Assembly: GCA_030765205.1 (NCBI GenBank)
Contig: JAVCDB010000113.1
Span: forward strand, 1 to 51,699
Direction of reading: 5' to 3'
DNA: 51,699 nt
Source: Candidatus Aadella gelida
GTDB taxonomy: Bacteria > Omnitrophota > Gorgyraeia > Tantalellales > Tantalellaceae
In this document: positions 1,027 through 51,699 of the stretch, one piece after another
How positions within the stretch are numbered: position 1 is the stretch's first letter
Layout: the number at the start of each line of letters is the position of its first letter
The notes under the pieces: model-generated
Database searches by the model: none
The model's input: only the letters and a program-made list of their open reading frames with translations
Told to the model about the DNA's origin: nothing
Made by a program: the position numbers and the translations under genes

Positions 1027-1112
1027 TCAGTCCCCTGCTCTTGGATGAGACTGCCTGTCCTCCGTAGCCCAATGATATATAATAGTTTGGCGAAGGAGGA
1101 AGCTACCGTGGC
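1027..1112 (-). pseudogene. Degenerate partial tRNA-Phe interrupted by palindromic element
   Basis: Minus strand GCCACGGTAGCT (1112-1101), then element 1100-1054, then AGAGCAGGGGACTGA (1041-1027) identical to tRNA-Phe body. Confidence 0.75.
1054..1100 (-). repeat. Palindromic AT-core element, copy 1
   Basis: TCCTCCTTCGCCAAACTATTATATATCATTGGGCTACGGAGGACAGG; arms CCTCC..GCC/GGC..GGAGG. Confidence 0.8.
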
Positions 1113-2024: not shown

Positions 2025-2141
2025 AAAAGTTTTAGAACAAAAACAGTGAAAGCAAAGAATTGTCAAGAAAGAAACATTCCCAAAAAGAGCAATATTCCTT
2101 GAAAAAACCCGAAAATAAGTATAAAATCTAACACACTGAAA

Positions 2142-2153
2142 GCCCGTGTAGCT
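2142..2153 (+). pseudogene. 5' fragment of a tRNA-Thr copy preceding palindromic element
   Basis: GCCCGTGTAGCT identical to first 12 nt of intact tRNA-Thr at 2264. Confidence 0.65.
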
Positions 2154-2201
2154 TCCTCCTTCGCCAACCTATTTATATATTATCTGGCTACGGCGGACAG
2201 G
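2154..2201 (+). repeat. Palindromic AT-core element, copy 2
   Basis: TCCTCCTTCGCCAACCTATTTATATATTATCTGGCTACGGCGGACAGG. Confidence 0.8.
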
Positions 2202-2263
2202 AAGAGACGGCTCGTTTCATAGTTGGTAAATTAGAACTGTTTTATATCTTGTATCGTTATCGT

Positions 2264-2339: not shown

Positions 2340-2567
2340 TTCTGCTTCGCTCTTCTAAAACAAAGCCTCTGGTAGAGCTACGCAGGAACAGGTTCTGGCG
2401 CGAAGTTCTTCAAGAGATTACAGTCTCTGCGAAGCCTTACCATGGTTTCCTTATTGTAAGGCGAAGTAGGACTTTCCCCTAGAATGTTTTCCACAAAAAG
2501 AAGCACGCTAATACACTCTATCTCAGAGCGGCTAGCAGCATCATATCTAAAGTGTAAAAATAACAGA

Positions 2568-48730: not shown

Positions 48731-48779
48731 CGTGTCCGCCGTAGCCAGATAATATATAAATATATCGGCGAAGGAGGGA
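48731..48779 (-). repeat. Palindromic AT-core element, copy 3
   Basis: Minus CCTCCTTCGCCGATATATTTATATATTATCTGGCTACGGCGGACA, near-identical to copy 2. Confidence 0.85.
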
Positions 48780-48825
48780 GTGAAACGAAGCAAATTTAAA
48801 GAAGAAAAAAATAGGAGCTAATATA

Positions 48826-51578: not shown

Positions 51579-51699
51579 GTGCGCCCAGCATGGGCGCTTA
51601 CTTGTCGGTGAAAGTCCGATATGGGGGTTGATAGTGCCAACCGTTAGCTTAAGACAAGGGTGTCCATCGTGAGGTGGAATCTGAAGGAAGTCGGCGGCA
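51579..51699 (+). mobile_element. Group II intron 5' end (domain I), truncated by window edge
   Basis: GTGCGCCCAGCATGGGCGC, GGTGAAAGTCCGA, CCAACCGTTAGC, AAGGGTGTCC, GGTGGAATCTGAAGGAAGTCGGCGGCA. Confidence 0.9.

Follow-up and report, generated by a model that had tools for sequence, protein, structure and literature searches.

Copies of tRNA 5' ends, followed by REP-like hairpins, upstream of intact tRNA genes in Candidatus Aadella gelida and other bacteria

Genes for tRNA are usually considered short, clean and stable. Why, then, does an exact copy of the first 12 nucleotides of a tRNA-Thr gene, followed directly by a dispersed palindrome, lie just upstream of the gene itself? The window analysed here is a stretch of 51,699 nt from Candidatus Aadella gelida (contig JAVCDB010000113.1), an omnitrophote whose genome (1.59 Mb, 113 contigs) is referred to below as the host. 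It begins with in-frame repeats encoding a GNPPGPKG-like, collagen-like protein (1-297) and ends in the start of a group II intron domain (51663-51699; RF02001, 33.4 bits) cut by the window end.

The intact tRNA-Thr(CGU) gene occupies 2264-2339 of the forward strand (ARAGORN and Rfam RF00005, 69.4 bits), and its nt 1-12, GCCCGTGTAGCT, recur at 2142-2153 (+), identical to 2264-2275, at the coordinates given by the initial annotation. Chance alone would place an exact 12-mer in the 400 nt before any one tRNA about 2.4e-5 times (400/4^12). A likely sigma-70 promoter (TTGAAA, 17 nt, TAAAAT), predicted from the sequence at 2099-2127 (+), adjoins the copy. The hairpin starts at 2154, directly 3' of the copied nucleotides and with no gap: it is a dispersed palindromic element, TCCTCCTTCGCC, an AT-rich loop and GGCTACGGCGGACAGG (2154-2201, +), placed at nt 12|13 of the copy. 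The spacer that follows (2202-2263, +) includes TAGTTGGTA (2220-2228), which had been taken for a weak tRNA-like remainder; its exact match to tRNA-Thr is just 8 nt long, and 3' of the hairpin the sequence resembles tRNA-Thr no more than it does unrelated tRNAs (z = -1.2), so that this part of the annotation is dropped here. The tRNA segment forms a direct repeat of 12 identical nt at both ends, and copy and gene are separated by 110 nt (185 nt at the tRNA-Phe described below), with no integrase gene in either interval. The 12-nt fragment is best read as what remains, at the 5' end, of an additional and incomplete tRNA-Thr copy between promoter and intact gene. A related palindrome of the same TTC/TAC type, TTCTGCTTCGC...GCTACGCAGGAACAGG, was read from the sequence directly 3' of the tRNA-Thr CCA (2340-2392, +).

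A second case in the window, on the opposite strand, retains more of the copy. The intact tRNA-Phe(GAA) gene lies at 840-915 (-; ARAGORN and Rfam), an identical copy of its nt 1-12, GCCACGGTAGCT, lies at 1101-1112 (-), and the element at 1054-1100 (-) matches that of tRNA-Thr and, as had been claimed, follows nt 12 in both; both copies run straight into TCCTCCTTCGCC...GGCTACGG[C/A]GGACAGG. The Phe element folds better as single-stranded DNA (z -1.8), and the Thr element alone does so weakly (z 0.5). Beyond the hairpin, at 1027-1053 (-), stand CAGTC (nt 13-17) and AGAGCAGGGGACTGA (nt 21-35, 15/15 identity); judged by its similarity to tRNA-Phe (z = 3.5 versus unrelated tRNAs), this remnant is real and the copy resumes there. 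Past nt 35, the tRNA-Phe leader contains another dispersed repeat of the host genome (CACCGTGTTAAGCTCCCCTGTTATGCTTACAGGGG..., 953-1027, -), reading CACCGTGTTAWGCT...GCTTACAGGGG, with copies on five further contigs.

The initial annotation had proposed that sister loci be compared for empty sites, and the outcome differs between the two tRNAs. At tRNA-Phe, the copy in the relative G010 reads GCCACGGTAGCTCAGTTGGTAGAGCAGGGGACTGA over nt 1-35, with a D-loop that lacks the hairpin and tRNA sequence continuing through nt 13-35, whereas in the host copy the hairpin stands exactly between GCT and CAG with no loss and no duplication at the junction. The G010 copy is thus probably an empty site, pointing to insertion with no target duplication, as far as one tRNA-Phe pair and a putative counterpart can indicate. 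At tRNA-Thr, the fragment itself is absent from the rnfC-adjoining tRNA-Thr of six relatives, which makes the event specific to the host lineage; the upstream flanks of these six are too diverged to show which flank at the host gene is native.

BLAST locates the element at about 19 places in the host, and at 27 and 24 in two relatives; like a REP, it is a short extragenic palindrome in many copies. The third copy in the window (48733-48780, -) is 92% identical to the Thr copy and has no tRNA or GTAG before it. None of the non-tRNA copies in the host has a GTAG foot, their left flanks are unrelated, and GTAG occurs beside the element only where the tRNA itself supplies it. A recombinase, Y1 transposase or reverse transcriptase associated with the element had been suggested as something to look for, and this suggestion was not borne out: neither a recombinase nor a reverse transcriptase was found beside the element, and in a genome-wide transposase search, which covered Y1_Tnp, the element flanks none of the three Y1_Tnp genes of the host, one of which is flanked by a different GTAG palindrome. 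On host contig 37 (L024:1386-1977), a Y1 transposase gene whose matched region is interrupted by one TAG has inverted 35-nt GTAG-type palindromes on both sides and looks like the REPtron of another repeat family.

Palindromes of the TTC/TAC type also lie directly 3' of CCA in several host tRNAs, and post-CCA palindromes accompany many tRNAs (L013, L016, L017 and window 2340-2392; L029, L037, L040 and L041 in relatives). In some of these the CCA pairs with a TGG in the right arm, and the pairing is kept by compensatory changes (GCT/AGC, ACC/GGT and GAC/GTC). Inverted pairs of palindromes occur after some CCA ends and in the units between copy and gene of genomes G385 and G384, and are absent from the two tRNA copies of the window.

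The arrangement recurs well beyond these two genes. A third host case is tRNA-Arg(tcg), where GCGCCTGTAGCT is followed by a hairpin and then by the intact gene, bringing the layout to 3 of 41 host tRNAs (Thr, Phe, Arg). Among 384 genomes of the class, two contain the pattern GTAGCTTCCNCCTTCGCC; besides the host this is Candidatus Omnitrophica bacterium CG07_land_8_20_14_0_80_42_15 (G033), alone in its family, and both extra matches there are tRNA 5' copies. Scanning one genome per species turned up 79 loci, about 18 of which have an intact cognate tRNA 60-200 nt further on, on the same strand; they span Patescibacteria, Kiritimatiellales, two deltaproteobacterial MAGs, a Rhodobacter MAG and others. 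None of the loci has the intact cognate tRNA upstream, and none of eight pattern matches in viral contigs is at a tRNA.

A survey independent of the hairpin, in which tRNAs of six genomes were located with RF00005 and their own first 12 nt were sought within 250 nt at no more than one mismatch, found upstream 5' copies at 3/41 tRNAs in the host, 6/38 in G033, 7/42 in G385, 15/32 in the Peribacteraceae genome G386, 3/38 in G010 and 0/44 in G011, a hairpin-poor relative with no match to the host hairpin. Shuffled pairings give an expectation of 0-0.6 copies per genome. The polarity is strict across the six genomes: 5' copies lie upstream 34 times and downstream once, and 3' copies (last 16 nt) lie downstream 17 times and never upstream. 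A simple origin, in which a hairpin entered one member of a complete tandem tRNA pair, was considered and is ruled out by this 34:1 polarity together with the absence of a full remainder in most cases. The 16-nt copies of tRNA 3' ends lie 87-205 nt past the intact gene and often share its downstream flank (L065, L050, L052, L063 and L082 in the host; L290, L302, L307, L308 and L314 in G386), and that of L308 has a hairpin in its T-loop. At L131, tandem 65-nt units, each comprising a promoter and tRNA-Ile nt 1-37, precede an intact tRNA-Ile with no hairpin; at L099, two consecutive hairpin-bearing 5' copies precede a tRNA-Pro cut by the contig end, apparently through repeated rounds. Literature on 5' tRNA copies or on palindromes at bacterial tRNAs yielded no match to this arrangement.

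What is constant among the copies is a place in the tRNA structure, nt 12|13, where the D-loop opens. When junctions are tabulated by tRNA numbering, as the initial annotation had advised, 23 of 37 copies are joined exactly there, and the others at nt 10, 13-17, 25-29 or 38. The bases 5' of the 12|13 junction are GCT in 18 copies, GCG in 3, GAG in 1 and GCC in 1; because the position is kept across all four, the junction is set by tRNA structure and not by one sequence. A target rule of GTAG or CT was tried and is ruled out, as there are non-tRNA copies without GTAG and junctions at GCG and GAG. The hairpins themselves differ, their first six bases being TCCGCC (13), TCCACC (8), TCCTCC (5), TCCCCC (4) or others, and in longer copies of G386 (L295, L299, L308) hairpins replace the anticodon and T loops too. 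Two tRNA families broken at the same nucleotide had been taken to argue for site-specific targeting or a template-driven mechanism rather than chance. The exclusion of chance and the recurring position are upheld well beyond two cases; site-specificity as it was worded is not, the position being structural and the hairpins varied. Nor is the tRNA simply broken, since the intact cognate always lies 3' of the 5' fragment, and the duplication also needs explaining.

The extent of duplication varies. In 11 of 50 copies the cognate tRNA resumes significantly after the hairpin, and these are hence tRNA copies, not merely short direct repeats; in the other 39, tRNA-Thr included, the tRNA remainder beyond the D-loop is not significant. 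The direct repeat ranges from 12 to more than 50 nt, and the distance from copy to gene from 54 to 240 nt. Duplication seems to reach slightly upstream of the gene: the flanks of copy and gene have a common 3' end averaging 3.3 nt (0.59 nt when shuffled), one flank pair is identical over all 45 nt examined, a longer upstream stretch is repeated at L165 and L296, and the promoter is duplicated in L165, L287 and L296. In the six-genome survey, the median -10 score before copies is 4.67 (4.22 for tRNAs with no copy), a native-like value which suggests that the copy often lies between promoter and gene; before the intact gene it is 3.52, a difference that is not significant in a paired test (p 0.27), and at a far control 2.51. 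The first 12 nt of the copies contain 11 mismatches in 600, having been chosen at no more than 1-2 mismatches, while D-loop bases 3' of the hairpin often differ from the cognate tRNA. Plain debris should decay evenly, and nt 1-12 that are nearly unmutated beside diverged neighbours are evidence against such a reading, an argument weakened because the copies were partly selected for that identity.

The reading preferred here, to which about an even chance is given, is that these are partial tandem duplicates of tRNA ends beside the intact gene, with loops that have been invaded by REP-like hairpins. A short duplication of a tRNA end, beginning a few nt upstream of nt 1 and extending into the gene, would create a spare copy, and REP-like mobile hairpins would then settle in its D-, anticodon- or T-loop positions with no target duplication. 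Selection would retain one intact tRNA, which would explain why the 5'-end partial copies lie upstream of the intact gene. Entry of the hairpins would most likely depend on a single-strand (HUH/Y1-type) transposase or on template switching at tRNA hairpins, and the latter might account for both borders, at nt 1 and at nt 12.

Several known systems resemble parts of this scheme. The palindromic elements of Rickettsia are short palindromes inserted in genes, RNA genes included; they are likened to the present hairpins by description only, and are not known to be tied to duplicated tRNA ends. REP/BIME sequences with TnpA-REP/RAYT share the short dispersed palindromes, the unpaired patch in the stem and sometimes inverted pairs, and insertion with no target duplication would fit. 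TnpA-REP makes single-strand cuts at CT or CA near a GTAG (PMC8266576), and most tRNAs read GTAGCTCA at the junction, so that GTAGCT|CA matches this cutting in many tRNAs but not in the GCG and GAG cases. Here, in contrast to REP/RAYT systems, the 12|13 junction persists with GCG or GAG, hairpin copies outside tRNAs lack the GTAG foot (REPs carry GTAG or CGTC there) and none of the Y1 genes has this hairpin on its flanks; among the Y1 genes of the host and the surroundings of the element, no mobilising enzyme is linked to it. The mitochondrial double-hairpin and repetitive hairpin-forming elements are mobile and fall into families that differ between lineages, some without flanking duplications (PMC2800124), but they belong to organelles, not bacteria, and partial tRNA duplication is not described there.

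The main rival, owing to the constancy of nt 1-12 beside bases that have changed, is a functional RNA leader: transcription would start at the promoter before the copy, and copy and hairpin would control tRNA maturation, the copied nt 1-12 competing for the 3' acceptor strand or guiding processing. The native-like promoter score before the copy, with the lower though not significantly different score before the intact gene, agrees with this, as do two properties of the G385 and G384 units. Copy and gene are a near-constant 114-117 nt apart at seven tRNAs of these two genomes, and the stems of the seven units covary (21 double-change cells, with 0 of 500 shuffles as high and sliding controls far lower), although the percentage of paired cells leans towards the drawn structure because that was drawn by eye on the same alignment. 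Covariation would, however, be equally expected if the hairpins are recognised as single-stranded DNA. A leader also sits poorly with the bare tRNA-Thr locus of six relatives and the absence of copies from all 44 tRNAs of G011, with the wide variation in hairpin sequence and spacer, and with the lack of any Rfam match in the tRNA leader. Moreover, likeness among the units between copy and gene is greatest inside one genome (92% in G384) and does not follow the tRNA from genome to genome, which suits mobile or homogenised cassettes more than leaders passed on by descent. A leader function therefore seems rather unlikely, and slightly more so its broader form, a widespread bacterial class in which a hairpin-capped mimic of nt 1-12 between promoter and tRNA gene would control tRNA folding or maturation by competing for the 3' acceptor strand.

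Less probable still is a small transposon with target-site duplication, a unit of about 100-190 bp inserted between tRNA nt 12 and 13 that duplicated nt 1-12. The 104-nt units of G384, 92% identical at two different tRNAs right up to tRNA nt 1, speak for it, and the G385/G384 unit resembles two inverted hairpins; but the direct repeat is not of fixed length, many copies resume the cognate tRNA after the hairpin, the right ends of the units have nothing in common between genomes, and no terminal inverted repeat was found in the window.

It is well documented that integrated elements commonly leave partial copies of tRNAs behind (PMC9897764), and the downstream 3' copies would fit remnants of ordinary integrative elements, for which the tRNA served an integrase as attachment site and a displaced fragment stayed behind after deletion of the element. 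Those fragments likewise stand beside an intact tRNA, but here they are mostly 5' fragments, upstream, just 54-240 nt from the gene, most with a D-loop hairpin and with no integrase. Such remnants are very improbable as the explanation, as every tRNA would require its own element and up to 15 of 32 tRNAs in a genome have a 5' copy, usually with a hairpin next to it. A chance match or an assembly error, for which nothing speaks but the shortness of the fragment, is negligible given three host tRNAs, dozens of cases in independent assemblies and shuffled controls near zero.

Recurrence at many tRNA genes of little-studied bacteria suggests that a process so far unrecognised copies the ends of tRNAs and fills these copies with mobile hairpins. 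As many as about half of a genome's tRNA genes (15/32) have an upstream copy of their own start, and the affected genomes, small or uncultured, belong to several phyla, with copies that are mostly cut at one structural position and filled with a hairpin. Because the fragments look like tRNA starts, annotators should treat them with caution. The system offers a direct test of target choice by REP-like hairpins, and it represents either a new and very regular shaping of tRNA loci by mobile hairpins and duplications, or a new kind of tRNA leader.
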